Assembly: GCF_040616545.1 (NCBI RefSeq)
Contig: NZ_CP156688.1
Location: forward strand, 558,001-622,000
Length of the DNA: 64,000 nt
Direction: 5' to 3'
DNA from: Akkermansia muciniphila
Lineage (GTDB): Bacteria; Verrucomicrobiota; Verrucomicrobiia; Verrucomicrobiales; Akkermansiaceae
The notes beneath the pieces were generated by a model. That model made no database searches, had not been told where the DNA came from, and saw nothing but the letters and a program-made list of their open reading frames with translations. Made by a program: the position numbers and the translations under genes. Below, piece after piece: positions 56,931-64,000 of this stretch (within the stretch, counting starts at the first letter, position 1; every line of letters starts with the position of its first letter).

Positions 56931-57098
56931 AAAAAATTCCCCCTCCTTTTCCCACCCTGGACGGCGGCGGCAGACAGCCGGTTCCGGGACTCCGGAAAGC
57001 CTGCCGCTTCCCTTCAGACGGCGGATTCGCCGGACCGTCCAGCCCCCTTCATCCCGGATATTCCAGTTCATCCCATTTTATTTGAGCAATTCCGACGC

Positions 57099-57578
57099 AT
57101 GAACGGTCTACAGTGCATGGAACAGAATAAATGCAAATCACCCGCATGCTGCCTGCTTGGCTCTTTCGCCACCAATACCAGCATGGACTTCGGCGTCCTG
57201 CTGCTGCGCCTGGGCGTAGGCGCAATGATGCTTGTGCACGGCATTCCCAAGCTGAGCATGCTCATCAGCGGAAACTGGGCCGCTTTCCAGGACCCGCTCG
57301 GAATCGGCAACTTTCTGTCCCTGCTCCTGTGCGTGGGCGCGGAATTCGGATGTTCCATCCTGATCTTCCTGGGCCTCTTCACCCGCCTGACCGCCCTCAT
57401 CCTGATCATTAACATGTGCGTGGCGCTCTTCCTCGTCCTGGGCCTCTCCGGCTGGGGCGCCCAGGAACTCGCGTCCATCTACCTGCTGATTTACCTGACC
57501 CTCTTCTACACGGGCCCGGGCAAATTCTCCCTGGATGCCTGGTGGCTCTGGCGCGACTGCAAAATAGAAGTGGAATAA
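57099..57578 (+). CDS. DoxX family membrane protein
   Basis: A 159-residue inner-membrane protein with four helices. Family features: LLLRLGVGAMMLVHGIPKL, EFGCSILIFLGLFTRL and SIYLLIYLTLFYTGPGKFSLDAW. DoxX proteins belong to quinone-linked electron transport or sulfur redox in some bacteria; the role here is unknown. The N-terminal tail has three Cys close together. Start at 57099 or 57117 is undecided. Confidence 0.85.
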   Translation: MNGLQCMEQNKCKSPACCLLGSFATNTSMDFGVLLLRLGVGAMMLVHGIPKLSMLISGNWAAFQDPLGIGNFLSLLLCVGAEFGCSILIFLGLFTRLTALILIINMCVALFLVLGLSGWGAQELASIYLLIYLTLFYTGPGKFSLDAWWLWRDCKIEVE

Positions 57579-57681
57579 AAAGGCCTCCTCCCGCCCGGCC
57601 TATGGCAAAAATACTTCTTTTTTCACTCGCCGCGGCAGGAGCCTTCCTCTAGGATGCTGGCACACCCAGTCCATCCGTTCA

Positions 57682-58683
57682 ATGTCCGGCAAATTAACCT
57701 ACAAGCAATCGGGGGTCGATACCAAAGAAGCAGCCGCTTTCGTATCCGACATCAGCTCTCACGTTAAAAGAACGCAAAAGCAGCGCTCCCTGCACCAGGC
57801 CTTCGGTCTTTTTGCCGCCGCTTATGACCTCAGCTCCTACAAGGAACCGGTTATCGTCACCGGATGCGACGGCGTAGGCACCAAGACGGAAATCCTGTTT
57901 GAACTGGACATGGTGGAAACCGCCGGCAAGGACCTGGTGGCCATGAACGTCAACGACATCCTTACCACGGGCGGGGATCCCCTCCTCTTCCTGGACTACC
58001 TGGGCATCTCCAATCTGGAACAGGAACGCACCCGCATCACCCGCCTGGTGGCCGGCATGTGCGACTATCTGGAATCCTGCAACTGCATTCTGGCAGGCGG
58101 GGAAACGGCTGAAATGCCCGGCGTGGTTCCGGAATCCATCGTGGAGCTTTCCGGCTTCTGCATCGGCTGCTGTGAAAAAAGCAAGCTGATTGATCCCAGG
58201 ACCGTCCGGCCCGGGGACGTATTCATCGGCTACAAATCCGACAGCTTCCATGCCAACGGCTGGAGCCTCATCCGCCGCATTCTGGAGGAAAACCCGGACG
58301 TAGTGGATGAAGAAGAACTCCGTTCCCTGCTGCAGCCCACCCGCCTGTACCATGACGTGGTGGCGGACATGCGCAGCTCCAACGTCATCCCCAAGGCCTA
58401 CGCCCACATCACCGGGGGCGGCCTTCCGGAAAACCTGGAACGTTTCCTGGGCGACTACGGCGCGGACCTCACCATCCCCTTCTGGGATAACCCCGCAGCC
58501 CAGAAAATCCTGAAGCACGCGGACCCCCAGGACCGCTTCAACACTTTCAACATGGGCATCGGCTGGGTAGCCATCGTGAAGCCGGAGGACGTGGAAGCCG
58601 CGTTGAAGGCAGGCCCCGGCGGCACGGTCATCGGCACGCTGAGAGAAGGCCGCGGCATTCATGTCAAGGTACAGGGCGAATAG
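57682..58683 (+). CDS. purM: Phosphoribosylformylglycinamidine cyclo-ligase
   Basis: Closes the imidazole ring of AIR in purine synthesis, using ATP. 333 residues, normal. Motifs: MSGKLTYKQSGVDTKEA, VTGCDGVGTKTEI, AMNVNDILTTGGDPLLFLDYL, CILAGGETAEMPG, SFHANGWSLIR and AHITGGGLPENL. Followed 66 bases later by purF, so these purine genes are neighbours though not overlapping. No Shine-Dalgarno. Confidence 0.96.
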   Translation: MSGKLTYKQSGVDTKEAAAFVSDISSHVKRTQKQRSLHQAFGLFAAAYDLSSYKEPVIVTGCDGVGTKTEILFELDMVETAGKDLVAMNVNDILTTGGDPLLFLDYLGISNLEQERTRITRLVAGMCDYLESCNCILAGGETAEMPGVVPESIVELSGFCIGCCEKSKLIDPRTVRPGDVFIGYKSDSFHANGWSLIRRILEENPDVVDEEELRSLLQPTRLYHDVVADMRSSNVIPKAYAHITGGGLPENLERFLGDYGADLTIPFWDNPAAQKILKHADPQDRFNTFNMGIGWVAIVKPEDVEAALKAGPGGTVIGTLREGRGIHVKVQGE

Positions 58684-58749
58684 AGACGGAGCCATTTCCT
58701 TGCAGCGGATACACCACACTTCACAGGACAATCTTTTCATCACAATCCC

Positions 58750-60669
58750 ATGAGCGATTTTCTTAAACACGAGTGCGGCGTAGCCGCCATTCGTCTGCTT
58801 AAGCCTCTCTCTTATTTTCAGGACAAATACGGCTCCACCCTCTGGGCGTTCAACAAGCTGCTCATCCTGATGGAAAAGCAGTACAACCGCGGGCAGGACG
58901 GCGCGGGTATCGGCTGCGTTAAACTGAACATGCCCCTGGGGCAGCCCTACCTGTTCCGCACCAGGGACGCCAGCAAGGACGCCCTGACTACCATCTTCAA
59001 CGGGCAAATCAAGAAGCTCAACAAAAAAGTCCGCCGCGGCCAGGTCAACCTGAAAGACGCGGAAGACATCAAGAACAATTTTGACTACGGCGGGGAAATC
59101 CTGATGGGCCACCTCCGCTACGGCACCTCCGGCCTCTTTGACGAAGGCTCCTGCCATCCCTACCTGCGCCGCACCAACTGGCCGACGCGCACCCTCATGG
59201 TGCTGGGGAACTTCAACATGACCAACACGCCGGAGCTGAACCAGCGCATGATTGAGCGCGGGCAGCACCCCGTCTTCGGCACGGACACGCAGACCGTCCT
59301 TGAAGAAATAGGCTACCATCTGGATGAAGCCCACACGGACCTTTACCGCGCCCTGCGTGACGGCGGCATGCCCGGACCGGAAATCCCCCACGCCATCTCC
59401 TCCCGGCTCAATGTCCAGGAAATCATTCATAACTCCGCCAAACAATGGGACGGCGGCTACGCCATCATGGGCGCCATCGGCAACGGGGACTACTTCTGCC
59501 TGCGGGACCCCCACGGCATCCGCCCCTGCCACTACCTCATCACGGATGAATACATTGCCGTGGCCTCCGAACGCGTTCCGCTGATGACCGTCTTTGAAGC
59601 GGAAAGCGAACAGGTGCAGGAACTGCCCCCGGCCCACATGCTCTCCATCAAGGCGGACGGCACGCATAACATCACGGAATTCACCACTCCGCTGAAGCCC
59701 ACGCCGTGCTCCTTTGAAAAAATCTACTTCTCCCGCGGGAACGATCCCATCGTGTACCGGGAGCGCAAGACCCTGGGCGCGGCGCTGACCCCGCAAATCG
59801 TGGATTCCCTGGAAGACCGCTTTGACAAATCCGCCATCACCTACATCCCCAACACGGCGGAAACCGCCTACTACGGCCTGCTGGAAGGCCTGCGCGTCTA
59901 CCGCCGCAAGCGCGTGCACGCCCAGCTTCTGGACGCCCTGAGAAACGGAACCCTTGATGAAAAGATGCTGGACAGCGCCATCCTGAAACGGTGGCCGCGC
60001 GGTGAAAAAATCGCCCACAAGGACATCAAGATGCGCACCTTCATCACGCAGGAGAAGAGCCGCGCCCAACTGGTCTCCCACGTGTACGACCTCACCTACG
60101 GCGCCGTGGGTCCGGAAGACGTGCTCGTCGCCATAGATGACTCCATCGTCCGCGGCACCACGCTGAGAAGGTCCATCCTCCGCATCCTGGGACGCACCAA
60201 CCCCCGGAAAATCGTCGTCGCCTCCACCGCTCCGCAAATCCGGTATCCGGACTGCTACGGCATTGACATGTCCGAGCTGGGGAACTTCATTGCCTTCCAG
60301 GCGGCGGTCTCCCTGCTCAAGCAGCACGGACAGGCCCGGCTGCTGGAAGATGTGTACAAGGCATGCAAGGAAGAACTGACCAAGCCCAGGGAAGAACGCC
60401 GCAACTGCGTCAAGGCCATTTACGAGGGTCTCACGGAAGCGGAAATCTCCCGTGAAATCACGCGCCTGGTCACTCCGCACGACGCTCCATGCCCCGTGGA
60501 AGTCATTTTCCAGACCATTGAAAACCTGCACGCCTCCATAGAAGGCCCGTGCGGTGACTGGTATTTCACCGGGGACTACCCGACTCCGGGCGGATACACC
60601 ACAGTTAATGTGGCATACATGCGCTGGTTTGAGGGTAAAGCGGGCCGTGCATACGATTTGCCCTTGTAG
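58750..60669 (+). CDS. purF: Amidophosphoribosyltransferase, long Bacteroides-type form
   Basis: First committed step of purine synthesis. 639 residues, longer than the ~500 of E. coli, as in Bacteroidetes homologues. Glutaminase domain starts HECGVAAIRLL, with the N-terminal nucleophile Cys9 after an eight-residue propeptide that must be removed. Other marks: RGQDGAGIG, GHLRYGTSG, and the PRPP loop AIDDSIVRGTTLRRSIL (about 457-475). The C-terminal extra region (about 500-639) ends RAYDLPL. Upstream of the ECF sigma gene by 33 bases. Confidence 0.94.
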   Translation: MSDFLKHECGVAAIRLLKPLSYFQDKYGSTLWAFNKLLILMEKQYNRGQDGAGIGCVKLNMPLGQPYLFRTRDASKDALTTIFNGQIKKLNKKVRRGQVNLKDAEDIKNNFDYGGEILMGHLRYGTSGLFDEGSCHPYLRRTNWPTRTLMVLGNFNMTNTPELNQRMIERGQHPVFGTDTQTVLEEIGYHLDEAHTDLYRALRDGGMPGPEIPHAISSRLNVQEIIHNSAKQWDGGYAIMGAIGNGDYFCLRDPHGIRPCHYLITDEYIAVASERVPLMTVFEAESEQVQELPPAHMLSIKADGTHNITEFTTPLKPTPCSFEKIYFSRGNDPIVYRERKTLGAALTPQIVDSLEDRFDKSAITYIPNTAETAYYGLLEGLRVYRRKRVHAQLLDALRNGTLDEKMLDSAILKRWPRGEKIAHKDIKMRTFITQEKSRAQLVSHVYDLTYGAVGPEDVLVAIDDSIVRGTTLRRSILRILGRTNPRKIVVASTAPQIRYPDCYGIDMSELGNFIAFQAAVSLLKQHGQARLLEDVYKACKEELTKPREERRNCVKAIYEGLTEAEISREITRLVTPHDAPCPVEVIFQTIENLHASIEGPCGDWYFTGDYPTPGGYTTVNVAYMRWFEGKAGRAYDLPL

Positions 60670-60693
60670 GGGGTACCTATTTTTGGGTATTCT
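60664..60693 (+). promoter_or_regulatory. Candidate promoter of the ECF sigma gene
   Basis: TTGTAG, 18-base spacer, TATTCT, ending nine bases before the ATG. Four of six matches in each box. Overlaps the purF stop. A near-leaderless transcript would result. Confidence 0.4.
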
Positions 60694-60702
60694 GCTACTA
60701 AT

Positions 60703-61302
60703 ATGTCGGGACCCATTGCATATACGACCCTGGAGGACACTGAACTGGTCGCCAGGGCGCGGGAAGGAGATTCGCGTGCTTTTGACGAACTAGTCATTCG
60801 TCACAGCCGCAAACTCCACGCCACCTTATACCAGATGACGGACAACTATGACGATGCTTACGACATCGCTCAGGAAGCGTTTTCCAAAGCCTACCGGGCC
60901 TTGCGCTATTTCAACGGCCAAAGCGCCTTTTATACCTGGCTGCATTCCATCGCCGTCAACCACGCCAGGAACTTCCTGAAAAAGAGGAACCGCAGGATGA
61001 CCTACAGCCTGGACGACGACGAGTACGGCGACCATACGGAAAAGGACATGAACATGGCTGATGAAACGGATGGAGCGGACCCGGAACGCCGCACCCATTT
61101 GAACGAACTTCAGCTCAAGATCAATGAAGCTCTGAAAAAACTTTCCACCAAGCACAGGGAAGTCGTTGTCCTTCATGATGTGAAGGGCCTTAACCATACG
61201 GAAATATCCGCCCTGCTGGGTATCTCCGAAGGAACGCTCAGATCACGTCTGCATTATGCCCACAAAGAACTGCAGGGACTGCTGGCAGAATATCTGAGTT
61301 AA
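60703..61302 (+). CDS. ECF-type RNA polymerase sigma factor
   Basis: Alternative sigma factor of 199 residues in the RpoE/SigW style. Region 2 is at about 20-90 (ARAREGDSRAFDELVIRHSRKLH, YDIAQEAFSKAYRALRYF, FYTWLHSIAVNHARNFLKKR), and region 4 is at about 140-190 (LSTKHREVVVLHDVKGLNHTEISALLGISEGTLRSRLHYA). A long linker with acidic stretch separates them. Followed by a single-pass membrane protein and a PDZ protein, the layout of an envelope-stress sigma module. Confidence 0.94.
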   Translation: MSGPIAYTTLEDTELVARAREGDSRAFDELVIRHSRKLHATLYQMTDNYDDAYDIAQEAFSKAYRALRYFNGQSAFYTWLHSIAVNHARNFLKKRNRRMTYSLDDDEYGDHTEKDMNMADETDGADPERRTHLNELQLKINEALKKLSTKHREVVVLHDVKGLNHTEISALLGISEGTLRSRLHYAHKELQGLLAEYLS

Positions 61303-61351
61303 CGGTGAAAAAAATATTGAACAACGGTTCCCCGGACCATGTCAAAATGCA

Positions 61352-61371
61352 TAGTCCTAGGTTTAGGACTA
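61352..61371. promoter_or_regulatory. Perfect palindrome between sigma and membrane-protein genes
   Basis: TAGTCCTA-GGTT-TAGGACTA: eight-base arms and a four-base centre, 38 bases before the next ATG. Could be an operator or a short RNA hairpin. Confidence 0.5.
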
Positions 61372-61408
61372 AAGCCCCAAACCTTTATTACACTTAAAAT
61401 CAACGACG

Positions 61409-61930
61409 ATGGATAAAAAATCCACAGAACATAATGAGGAAACTCTGGTCGCCATGCTGGCATCTTTTCGCAAGGAAGCCTGTTACCATGACAACTTTGA
61501 GGAAGATTTCCTCCGTAATTTTCATTTAAGAAAGGAAACCGATCCGGCTACCCATTCTGCTTGGAAATTGCTACTCGAACGCCTGGACAACTATCTGCAA
61601 AACTTTCGTGGTTGGCAGTGGGTCTACGCTTCCATGTCCATCGTGACATTGGCTGCGGTGGGCGTTATCATCGCATCCGGGAATATGGACGAACCTGCTG
61701 ATTCTTATGCTTCCTCCATCAAGGAGAAGGAAGAGATTCTCTTGAAGGAAAAAGCCGTTCCCGTAAGTAACGAAATTATTGAACAACCTTCAACCGAAGC
61801 CGTCTCCGCCGGACAACCTGAGTTTACCACCGGAGCGTCTTCACATGAAACATCGGCTAAAGACAATCAGCTGAACACTGATTCCAATACCGATAAAAAA
61901 CCGGTATCCCGCGTTCTCATTGAGATGTAA
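61409..61930 (+). CDS. Single-pass membrane protein, candidate anti-sigma factor
   Basis: A 173-residue protein. The N-terminal 70 residues are charged and helical (LVAMLASFRKEACYHDNFEEDFLRNFHLR), followed by one membrane helix at 71-90 (WVYASMSIVTLAAVGVIIAS) and a Ser/Thr/Glu-rich tail that would lie in the periplasm. The layout fits a membrane anti-sigma factor, and its place directly after an ECF sigma gene supports this. No named anti-sigma domain (zinc finger or RseA) is visible. Assignment is by context. Confidence 0.72.
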   Translation: MDKKSTEHNEETLVAMLASFRKEACYHDNFEEDFLRNFHLRKETDPATHSAWKLLLERLDNYLQNFRGWQWVYASMSIVTLAAVGVIIASGNMDEPADSYASSIKEKEEILLKEKAVPVSNEIIEQPSTEAVSAGQPEFTTGASSHETSAKDNQLNTDSNTDKKPVSRVLIEM

Positions 61931-61936
61931 CAATCC

Positions 61937-62812
61937 ATGATGAACCTGGCTCCGATATTGGCGGGCATAGCCGTTGCAGGCTTGATTTATCAAGCGGCGG
62001 CCGTGCCTGCCCCTTTTAAGGTGGAAGCCATTCCGCAACAGGCGGAAGGAGTGCCGTACACTGCCATGGCGGCACAGGTCGGAAAAGACCTGATCGCCTC
62101 CCTGATTCCGTACAGGGTTTTTAAAAACGGAGAGGTGGCCTACTATCTTGGCGACAAGGACACCCCGCCCCTGCAGGTATGGGCCCAGGAAAAACTCACG
62201 GGCCTGACCATCTTCAAGGTGGACGCCGCCCGGATCAGCGGAGATCCCGCCATCCTGGTGCCCGCCGGCACTCTCAGGCGCGGCGCGCGGCTTGCCTTTA
62301 CCAGCAACCGTAATGAACCCACGCTGGGAATTTATGTGGGCATGGAGCACTCCATAGGAGATACCAGCTTCCCGCTGCGCCTTGTCCGCGCCCAATTCCC
62401 CAAGCTGGCGGCTCCGCCCATCGGCCAGCCCTGCTATGATGCTGAAAACCGCCTGGTCGGCATCGTGCTGGGAGTTTCCCGCAGGGGAACGTGCCACCTG
62501 CTGCCCGCCCAGGCCATCTCCTTCCTGGCGGACCATCCGAAAGCCAAAAGGGTGCGGCTGGGATGCCTTCTGGACATCAATGCCTCCACCCCCGTCATTG
62601 AAGGCCTCATTAGCGGAGGCCCTCTGGCACGGGGAGGCATCCAGACCGGAGACATCCTCATCAGCATCAACGGCTCCCCCATCCGCAACTACGGCGACAT
62701 GCTGGACGCCACCTATTACCTTACGGGAGACAAGCCCCTGACTGTTGAAGTCATCCGCGGCACCCAGGTGGTAAAAAGCAAGGGCATCATCCCCACACAG
62801 GATGCCCGGTGA
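61937..62812 (+). CDS. HtrA-like PDZ protein lacking a protease active site
   Basis: A 291-residue protein with a signal or anchor helix (MMNLAPILAGIAVAGLIYQAAA), a trypsin-like beta region (about 45-195), then one PDZ domain (about 205-285: GCLLDINASTPVIEGLISGGPLARGGIQTGDILISINGSPI). The segment APPIGQPCYDAENRLVGIVLG stands where HtrA proteases have GNSGGPL, so the catalytic Ser is missing. It lies six bases after the candidate anti-sigma gene. It may sense envelope peptides or hold the anti-sigma factor rather than cut it. Confidence 0.82.
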   Translation: MMNLAPILAGIAVAGLIYQAAAVPAPFKVEAIPQQAEGVPYTAMAAQVGKDLIASLIPYRVFKNGEVAYYLGDKDTPPLQVWAQEKLTGLTIFKVDAARISGDPAILVPAGTLRRGARLAFTSNRNEPTLGIYVGMEHSIGDTSFPLRLVRAQFPKLAAPPIGQPCYDAENRLVGIVLGVSRRGTCHLLPAQAISFLADHPKAKRVRLGCLLDINASTPVIEGLISGGPLARGGIQTGDILISINGSPIRNYGDMLDATYYLTGDKPLTVEVIRGTQVVKSKGIIPTQDAR

Positions 62813-62925
62813 TGCGGAAACCCGCCTCCCGGGGAAATGCCGCGGAACCCGCTCGGCCCGGTTCAAAATCGGTCCGTGGCTTGTTTCAGGCTTGAACTCG
62901 GACGCCGGCGCACTTAAAAAAGGGC

Positions 62926-63294
62926 GTGCTTCAAATCGTCTTCAATAAAATCAGCGCTGCGGAAGTATCCAGCATCCCCACTTTGGAACAACTGGACCTG
63001 CTCGGAGACTTCCAGGTTTCCGAATCCACCCTGCAAACCCTGGATGACGCCCGCTTCGGCAAGATGGAAAAAGACGGCAAAATTCTTTACCGTTACGTAG
63101 CCAGGGACTACCGTATTTATTTTGAAGTCATTGAGGGCAAGGTAGTCGTCCACCGAGTCCTGCACGCCAACAGCCTGAATGATTTCCTGTTCCGCACCAA
63201 CATTTCCCCTTCTGCGGGGGAAGACGAAATCCTGAGCCAGTCCAAACACTTCTGGAAACTCATTGACGAAGGCAAAAACGCCTCCAAATCCTGA
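62926..63294 (+). CDS. RelE/ParE-like small protein
   Basis: A 122-residue protein from a GTG start. The middle and end (KMEKDGKILYRYVARDYRIYFEVIEGKVVVHRVLH) have the beta pattern of RelE/ParE-type toxins, where YRIYFEV matches the usual strand before the catalytic or contact residues. No antitoxin gene sits on either side: the PDZ protein is upstream and coaC 13 bases downstream. It may be a lone RelE-fold protein with a housekeeping role instead. GTG was chosen since the next ATG (about residue 47) would cut the first strands. Confidence 0.6.
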   Translation: MLQIVFNKISAAEVSSIPTLEQLDLLGDFQVSESTLQTLDDARFGKMEKDGKILYRYVARDYRIYFEVIEGKVVVHRVLHANSLNDFLFRTNISPSAGEDEILSQSKHFWKLIDEGKNASKS

Positions 63295-63307
63295 CCATTC
63301 CGACCCC

Positions 63308-63847
63308 ATGGCCTGCATCATCCTGGGCATCACCGGCTCCATTGCCGCGTACAAGGCGGCGGACATCGCTTCCGCCCTGGTTAAAGCCGGGCATGAGGTA
63401 CACTGCGTCTGTACGGCCAAGGCCCTGGAATTCGTCACGGCCCTCACGCTGCACACCATCTCCCGCAACCCTGTTTTCTCCTCCTTTGAGGATGAAAAGG
63501 GAGAATGGATCCCCCCCCACATCCAGCTCGCCCAGCGGGCGGACCTCCTGGTGGTGGCTCCCGCCACGGCAAACACCATGGCCAACCTCGCCCGCGGCTT
63601 CGCGCCAGACATGCTCAGTTCCCTTTACCTGGCCTGCCAGGCTCCCGTGCTCATCTGCCCGGCCATGAACGTCCACATGTGGGAACACACGGCCACGCAG
63701 CAGAATGCGGCCATCCTGAAGCAACGGAAAGGCCACCACATCCTGGGCCCCTGTGAGTCCGGCGTTCTGGCCTGCGGCGCGGAAGGAGCGGGAAAACTGA
63801 TGCCGGTGGACCGGATTGTTCAAGAAACGCTCTCCCTCCTGCCGTAA
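63308..63847 (+). CDS. coaC: Phosphopantothenoylcysteine decarboxylase, stand-alone
   Basis: Flavin enzyme that decarboxylates phosphopantothenoylcysteine in coenzyme A synthesis. 179 residues, which matches only the CoaC half of the usual fused CoaBC (about 400). Marks: GITGSIAAYKAADIASALVKAG (FMN site), PPHIQLAQRADLLVVAPATANTMANLA and the loop CPAMNVHMWEH. The CoaB ligase must be encoded elsewhere or outside the window. Start chosen at MACIILGITG; the frame upstream is not needed by the fold. Confidence 0.9.
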   Translation: MACIILGITGSIAAYKAADIASALVKAGHEVHCVCTAKALEFVTALTLHTISRNPVFSSFEDEKGEWIPPHIQLAQRADLLVVAPATANTMANLARGFAPDMLSSLYLACQAPVLICPAMNVHMWEHTATQQNAAILKQRKGHHILGPCESGVLACGAEGAGKLMPVDRIVQETLSLLP

Positions 63848-63913
63848 CGGCTGCGCAAAAATTACCTCCATGCCTGTTTATTGGTTTGCCCCGGGAGAAG
63901 TAAATCTTTTATC

Positions 63914-64000
63914 ATGGACATTATGAAAATGCTCCTCTACTTCCTTGGGACTCTCATGCTCTGTTCCTGCGGGCCGGACAGATACCCCGTCAGCTTCCAC
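63914..64000 (+). CDS. Lipoprotein, 5' fragment (3' end outside window)
   Basis: The first 29 codons read MDIMKMLLYFLGTLMLCSCGPDRYPV: a signal with lipobox LCSC and Cys19. The rest lies beyond the window. An alternative start is ATG at 63923. No family can be inferred from so short a part. Confidence 0.7.
   Translation, partial: MDIMKMLLYFLGTLMLCSCGPDRYPVSFH

Follow-up and report, generated by a model that had tools for sequence, protein, structure and literature searches.

When an anti-sigma factor is removed by regulated proteolysis, the usual explanation is an active site-1 protease whose PDZ domain detects stress. How, then, might an extracytoplasmic function (ECF) sigma factor be controlled when the HtrA-like PDZ protein encoded beside it appears unable to cut? 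This question is raised by a locus of Akkermansia muciniphila (RefSeq assembly GCF_040616545.1, a complete genome of 3.06 Mb), analysed here in a window of 64,000 nucleotides (contig NZ_CP156688.1, positions 558,001 to 622,000 of the forward strand), to which all coordinates below refer. Three plus-strand genes lie in series, encoding an ECF-type sigma factor (P0001), a membrane protein (P0002) and a PDZ protein (P0003), the last two being separated by six bases. The original prediction, made from the sequence alone, had described this arrangement, and all three genes were confirmed, the membrane protein with its single predicted span. Its end of the module at 62812 was retained, and its start at 60664 was moved, since that position still belongs to the preceding gene, which runs to the last base of its stop codon at 60669. 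The evidence assembled below suggests that the dead HtrA-like protein P0003 probably grips the C-terminal tail of P0002 and controls the proteolysis of P0002 by binding, with a removable cap as the preferred form.

A PDZ pseudoprotease with an HtrA fold

P0003 (61937-62812, plus strand; 291 amino acids) scored above the Pfam cut-offs for PDZ_6 (34.4 bits against a cut-off of 27), PDZ and PDZ_2. No trypsin-family match was obtained for P0003 itself in the Pfam scan, and Trypsin_2 was above its cut-off in six of the seven relatives scanned. A structural model built from 46 family members had a mean predicted local distance difference test (pLDDT) score of 90.2 and a predicted template modelling (pTM) score of 0.84, and its best structural relatives were DegQ, DegP and other HtrA proteases. 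The DegQ structure 4ynn was superimposed on residues 16-290 with a Z of 23.4 and a root-mean-square deviation of 2.4 over 257 residues, DegS entries gave Z values of 17.5 to 20.7, and Foldseek agreed in placing the model closest to HtrA proteases. The HtrA-like character originally proposed was therefore borne out by structure prediction over nearly the whole length of the protein, with no triad at the usual places in the family. The PDZ domain occupies about residues 205-285 and contains Gly209, which was invariant in both alignments of the P0003 family. The N-terminus resembles a signal peptide by eye, which suggests a periplasmic placement.

To set the columns of the catalytic triad, two GNSGGP-bearing proteins were aligned with the family: L329, which comes from a different lineage of the phylum, and L335, which is encoded in this genome. 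Only L329 served to place the Asp column, and the alignment around the His column is loose. In P0003 the catalytic His is replaced by Pro58 (62108-62110), the Asp by Gly89 (62201-62203) and the Ser by Ile162 (62420-62422). Among 102 relatives, namely four from Akkermansia, 77 of the 78 further loci of the order and 21 of the 22 loci outside it (a truncated sequence, L284, and the active HtrA protein L329 were dropped), the His and the Asp were each kept in none and the Ser in three. Chance decay of a single gene was ruled out because the triad is missing in these 102 relatives. The original prediction had read GNSGG as changed to GQPCYD: the motif is indeed lost, and the register was off by a few residues, with N-S-G-G-P aligning on P-I-G-Q-P. 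On fold and alignment, P0003 and its whole family thus combine an HtrA fold lacking the triad with a PDZ domain, which supports the proposal that the PDZ partner is unable to cut.

The three-gene module extends across the order

Among 76 genomes of the genus, P0001 was matched in 71 (E ≤ 1e-40), P0002 in 67 (E ≤ 1, many of the matches being weak) and P0003 in 14 (E ≤ 1e-6). Twelve of the 14 P0003 matches were at 80-100%, and the gene order P0001, P0002, P0003 was kept in all 12 of these genomes; G015 and G089, which account for the remaining matches, were at 38% and share this gene order. At the level of the order (Verrucomicrobiales), the P0003 profile was matched in 114 of 331 genomes, representing 25 of 44 genera (E ≤ 1e-12). 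Neighbourhoods were examined for 90 of the 117 listed P0003 places in the order. Twelve of these belong to the close relatives and 78 are further loci, and the three genes were found in the same order at 73 of the 78. At one of the remaining five loci (L279) the membrane protein gene is interrupted by in-frame stops.

Matches outside the order yielded 22 loci, 21 from the same class and one from another class, and all three genes were present at 20 of them, the membrane protein of L321 being found by eye. The two exceptions are L324, which ends at a contig edge, and L329, an ordinary active HtrA protein without a sigma factor. The co-occurrence of the three genes in relatives, which the original prediction had named as a check, thus reaches well beyond this genome, and an invention confined to Akkermansia was ruled out because the module also occurs elsewhere in the order and in further lineages of the class. 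A phylum-wide profile search matched 292 of 383 genomes; as it also catches ordinary HtrA proteases, this figure is no count of the module.

The sigma factor and its membrane partner

P0001 (60703-61302, plus strand; 199 amino acids) was identified by family-model matches, exceeding the Pfam cut-offs for Sigma70_r2 (55.4 bits), r4_2 (48.2 bits) and Sigma70_ECF (28.8 bits) as well as that of TIGR02937 (104.2 bits against 42.9). The cut-off of the RpoE equivalog model TIGR02939 was not reached (132.6 bits against 236.15). As a short protein with regions 2 and 4, P0001 is an ECF sigma factor. Its gene comes after a purF-like gene in Akkermansia, and a purF-like gene adjoins the sigma gene in nearly all retrieved stretches that contain it (gene names assigned by eye). 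The sole retrieved 10-kb stretch in which the sigma gene does not stand beside a purF-like gene is L191 (G001).

P0002 (61409-61930, plus strand; 173 amino acids) is predicted to cross the membrane once, by a helix at residues 70-90. Its model, with a mean pLDDT of only 64.0, consists of helices at residues 3-20, 30-44, 47-64 and 70-90 followed by an unstructured stretch. The number of residues after the transmembrane helix has a median of 62 in 85 family members, and the shortest intact stretch has 29 (L211). A cytoplasmic helical domain, one transmembrane helix, a periplasmic stretch and an adjacent sigma gene together give P0002 the layout of an RseA-type protein, and by analogy, on model and gene context, it is probably an anti-sigma factor. 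The exception to the adjacency is a group of 47 Akkermansia genomes, in which the P0002 homologue is unlinked to the sigma gene; it stands beside a hemA-like gene in 45 of these 47 Akkermansia-group stretches (names assigned by eye; for example L105/L106 and L107/L108).

The commonest weak match of the P0002 family was NF038083 (CU044_5270 family), obtained in eight of 42 sequences with a best E of 1e-4. A profile search of the PDB with P0002 gave only two weak matches, both to unrelated proteins. Structure comparison gave no match at Z ≥ 2 among three candidates, a result that says little for a helical model of low confidence.

A hydrophobic C-terminal tail accompanies the PDZ gene

The last eight codons of P0002 (61904-61927, plus strand) encode VSRVLIEM-COOH, which is proposed as a PDZ ligand on the grounds of tail conservation. 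All 12 close relatives end in KPVSRVLIEM although the preceding periplasmic stretch varies, and the P0002 homologues of G015 and G089 end in ITRQLADF and ATRQLIEF, respectively. More broadly, a hydrophobic last residue was found in 105 of the 105 P0002 homologues followed by a PDZ gene, often within REF, REL, QVF or IEM. The 85 such tails in the order ended in F (50), L (21), M (12) or Y (2); there were 64 distinct last-eight-residue tails in the order, with a penultimate E in 42. Outside the order the end was hydrophobic in 20 of 20 (19 counted and one judged by eye), as in PVSYDAPVSF, SSELF and GTSIY. As controls from the same loci, the last residue was hydrophobic in 19 of 73 sigma factors and two of 73 P0003 proteins of the order.

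Loci without the PDZ gene were drawn from 20 genomes of the order outside the 114 matches, which were picked from earlier listings and are thus not a random sample; G028 and G036, which fell below the completeness threshold of the 114-genome search, gave no match in a separate search. A sigma factor was matched in 19 of the 20, at orthologue level in 16 (E ≤ 1.8e-80), and P0002 followed the sigma gene in all 16. Absence of a PDZ gene was defined as none within 1,500 bases behind the sigma gene. The P0002 end was hydrophobic in four of these 16 loci (L340, L351, L352 and L353), and Fisher's test of tail against PDZ gene gave 8e-12, relatedness being ignored. One Akkermansia genome (G046) has sigma factor and P0002 adjacent, no detected P0003 and a P0002 ending in SERSN.

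Relatedness was considered on a tree of the sigma gene with 151 rows, in which the 96 rows with a PDZ gene all had a hydrophobic tail and the presence of the PDZ gene changed nine times. In six independent supported pairs the tail followed PDZ presence 4.5 times on average and never went the opposite way. The link between tail and PDZ gene is consistent in direction, with few independent events. The conserved tail of P0002 is an independent line of evidence that supports, at the level of sequence, the binding-based or adaptor signal first proposed for this module.

A promoter-like motif beside the sigma gene

In the gap between the sigma gene and P0002, the 12 close relatives all share an invariant A-rich block ending in TATTGAAC, followed by a variable spacer and TGTC. 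This comparison defined a promoter-like site, TTGAAC-N17-TGTC (61317-61343, plus strand), before the P0002/P0003 pair. Ahead of the sigma gene, the pattern GAAC-N16/17-TGTC was also found at 17 of the 84 loci from the order and class, at 16 of them as TTGAAC. Shuffled sequences gave a mean of 0.62, and spacers of 14, 15, 18 and 19 gave none. TTGAAC-N17-TGTC resembles the promoters of ECF sigma factors, and from this likeness the sigma factor probably drives transcription of its regulators in Akkermansia and, in some relatives, of the operon that encodes it. Across the order, the motif occurred between the sigma gene and P0002 in four of 73 loci, against 2.5 in shuffles; since two of the four (L207 and L208) belong to the Akkermansia group, this placing looks specific to Akkermansia.

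Throughout the genome, 18 TTGAAC-N16/17-TGTC sites were counted against two for the reversed pattern, many of them inside genes, and they possibly mark a regulon. By eye, the open reading frame of a thioredoxin-like secreted protein begins 53 bases past the start of one site (L373), and a rhomboid-like membrane protein follows another (L377).

The eight-base-arm palindrome reported between the sigma gene and its partner is present at 61352-61371 (plus strand), with four bases between the arms, as a small hairpin just 3′ of the promoter-like site. On the 12 close relatives, five pairs were predicted; a single one shows changes on both sides, and it is broken in three of the 12 sequences. A role as operator or attenuator was dropped on this count, and the Rfam search gave nothing at gathering scores in 57000-64000. 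The palindrome is a minor feature, less important than the adjoining promoter-like block.

A binding-based model and its alternatives

In the mechanism we prefer, the N-terminal helices of P0002 would keep the sigma factor bound at the inner membrane, and its short, unstructured periplasmic stretch would end in a hydrophobic tail gripped by the PDZ groove of P0003. Since P0003 is predicted to be unable to cut, it would act by gating the access of other proteases to P0002. Candidates are encoded in this genome: an RseP-type protein (204.3 bits, over the cut-off, with HELGH), as a site-2 protease, and a 508-amino-acid protein with GNSGGP, as an HtrA protease whose serine motif is intact. By analogy, the bound pseudoprotease would keep the short periplasmic stretch from the site-2 protease. 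The cap might be removed by misfolded outer-membrane proteins with similar C-termini, or by another signal acting on the dead barrel; the Omp85 protein of this genome ends in NYSY and is a possible competitor for the groove. With P0003 off, P0002 would be cut and the sigma factor released, and the freed sigma factor would raise the output of P0002 and P0003 from its own promoter. Extending this scheme to the whole class is a tentative step: there, a PDZ pseudoprotease would cap a ligand built into the anti-sigma factor, the C-termini of misfolded outer-membrane proteins would displace the cap, and the short stretch would then be cut by the site-2 protease without a DegS-type first cut.

Several observations weigh against the capping mechanism. 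P0003 occurs with neither sigma factor nor P0002 in the retrieved stretch at three loci of the order (L217, L237 and L274), and at L245 the sigma gene is followed directly by P0003, with no anti-sigma-like P0002 gene between them. Hydrophobic tails also occur without P0003, in 28 of the 55 tree rows that lack it (four of 16 in the order and 24 of 39 in Akkermansia), in 30 of the 47 unlinked Akkermansia P0002 copies without P0003 (25 of these ends being aromatic, for example VRYAF), and in G013, where the sigma gene and P0002 are adjacent, no P0003 was matched and the tail ends in Y. L351, one of the four hydrophobic exceptions in the order, has a weak remnant of a PDZ gene behind it. The phylogeny-controlled test of the tail was not significant alone (six pairs, median p 0.125). 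Twelve of the 20 P0003-less genomes matched a broader P0003 profile somewhere, at 1.7e-22 to 3.8e-28; ordinary HtrA proteases reach these values too, so a P0003 elsewhere in those 12 genomes is possible. DegS binds YxF, and the P0002 tails are mostly of the form [RQ]-E-[FL], unlike YxF. Lastly, no model named as anti-sigma in Pfam or NCBIfam, the RseA family included, was matched by P0002 or any of 41 relatives, and a known anti-sigma family was dropped as a candidate for P0002.

A rather unlikely alternative is that P0003 grips the P0002 tail as an adaptor, delivering P0002 to a protease under stress, and is thus an activator rather than a cap. The conserved tail, the HtrA and PDZ fold and the absent triad suit it equally, PDZ domains present substrates in known pathways, and a GNSGGP-bearing HtrA and an RseP-type protein are both encoded in this genome. 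An obligate activator would, however, be expected to be lost with the module, and 16 relatives retain the sigma factor and P0002 with no P0003 gene behind, which argues that P0003 modulates and is not an obligatory activator; nor was another protease gene seen in the module.

It is also unlikely that the tail signals to a different PDZ protease, such as an active HtrA, a C-terminal processing protease or RseP, with P0003 acting as an unrelated chaperone or sensor. Other PDZ proteases are present in this genome, and the hydrophobic or aromatic tails of P0003-less Akkermansia homologues indicate that the tail can outlive P0003 or serve another partner; the 47 genomes with an unlinked P0002 gave no P0003 match (E ≤ 1e-6), and their tails may have, or may have gained, such a partner. 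The broader-profile matches noted above shifted confidence slightly from the capping mechanism towards this explanation. On the other side, 12 of the 16 order loci without P0003 behind have lost the tail and retained P0002, and none of the independent pairs shows a tail change that runs opposite to P0003. Many of the unlinked Akkermansia-group copies carry tails like those of outer-membrane proteins, such as VRYAF.

Improbable, too, is a P0002 that is no anti-sigma factor but forms with P0003 a separate envelope complex sharing an operon with the sigma factor. The missing anti-sigma family and the 47 Akkermansia genomes in which P0002 is not beside the sigma gene would fit such a complex. Against it, P0002 follows the sigma gene in 73 of 78 order loci, in 20 of 22 loci outside the order and in 16 without P0003, its cytoplasmic helices and single transmembrane helix are laid out like those of known anti-sigma factors, and a sigma-type site precedes the P0002/P0003 pair in Akkermansia. 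Proteolysis by P0003 through an unconventional active site, for which the Cys in the loop beside Ile162 (GQPCYD) might be invoked, is very improbable, given a catalytic His and Asp in none of the 102 relatives, a Ser in three, and a Cys that recurs at this place, among aligned relatives, only in Akkermansia (the type in the window, L207 and L208).

Other features of the locus and genome

Downstream of P0003, at 62926-63294, lies an open reading frame of 122 amino acids with a ParE-toxin match below threshold (19.1 bits against a cut-off of 23); it is kept in G015, G046, G089, G040 and G004. Elsewhere in this genome (L334/L019, G000:C1:250110-251119), a PDZ protein with GGDSGGP (a 351-amino-acid frame) stands beside a 395-amino-acid PDZ protein without a GNSGG-type motif, which is 27% to P0003 over its match. 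These two are possibly a second living and dead pair.

Relation to known envelope stress pathways

The module resembles the RpoE-RseA-RseB-DegS-RseP pathway of E. coli in its ECF sigma factor, single-pass membrane partner, periplasmic regulator and presumed PDZ recognition of hydrophobic C-termini, and this genome also encodes RseP-type and HtrA proteins. It differs in that the HtrA-like member is dead and lies in the operon, and in that the proposed PDZ ligand sits on the membrane partner, which has no RseA-family match. By analogy, the module would work like the RseA-RseB-DegS group; it is not filed as a member, because the triad is absent, no family named as anti-sigma is matched by P0002 and the sigma factor falls below the RpoE cut-off. 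DegQ, DegP and other HtrA proteases share the fold and PDZ domain with P0003, and the triad is lacking in P0003 and its family.

The fold of RseB differs from that of HtrA, and RseB was not among the listed structural matches of the P0003 model, no direct comparison having been made. As P0003 has an HtrA fold with a PDZ domain, it would be an analogue of RseB. According to a review, RseA of E. coli is shielded by RseB, and a role as size-exclusion filter is proposed for the PDZ domain of RseP (PMC10202637). P0003 would be like RseB/MucB as a non-cutting periplasmic protein that shields its anti-sigma factor, RseA/MucA in that review (PMC10202637). In Pseudomonas aeruginosa, the AlgW PDZ domain binds the periplasmic tail of MucE, SVRDELRWVF, controlling an ECF pathway (PMC8545111). 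In that system the tail is carried by a separate activator and turns on a living protease, whereas here it would sit on the putative anti-sigma factor and the HtrA-like partner is dead.

In the titles and abstract openings returned by an open-licence literature search, whose scope did not include the main ECF classification, no description of this module appeared, nor any described pathway of this kind in this bacterial group. In this lineage, to which a much-studied gut commensal belongs, the sensor appears to have been kept and the blade discarded, with the ligand shifted onto the anti-sigma factor. This suggests a stress alarm run by grip and release rather than by cutting. With its sigma factor and a candidate promoter motif, the module also offers a way into envelope stress in this group.

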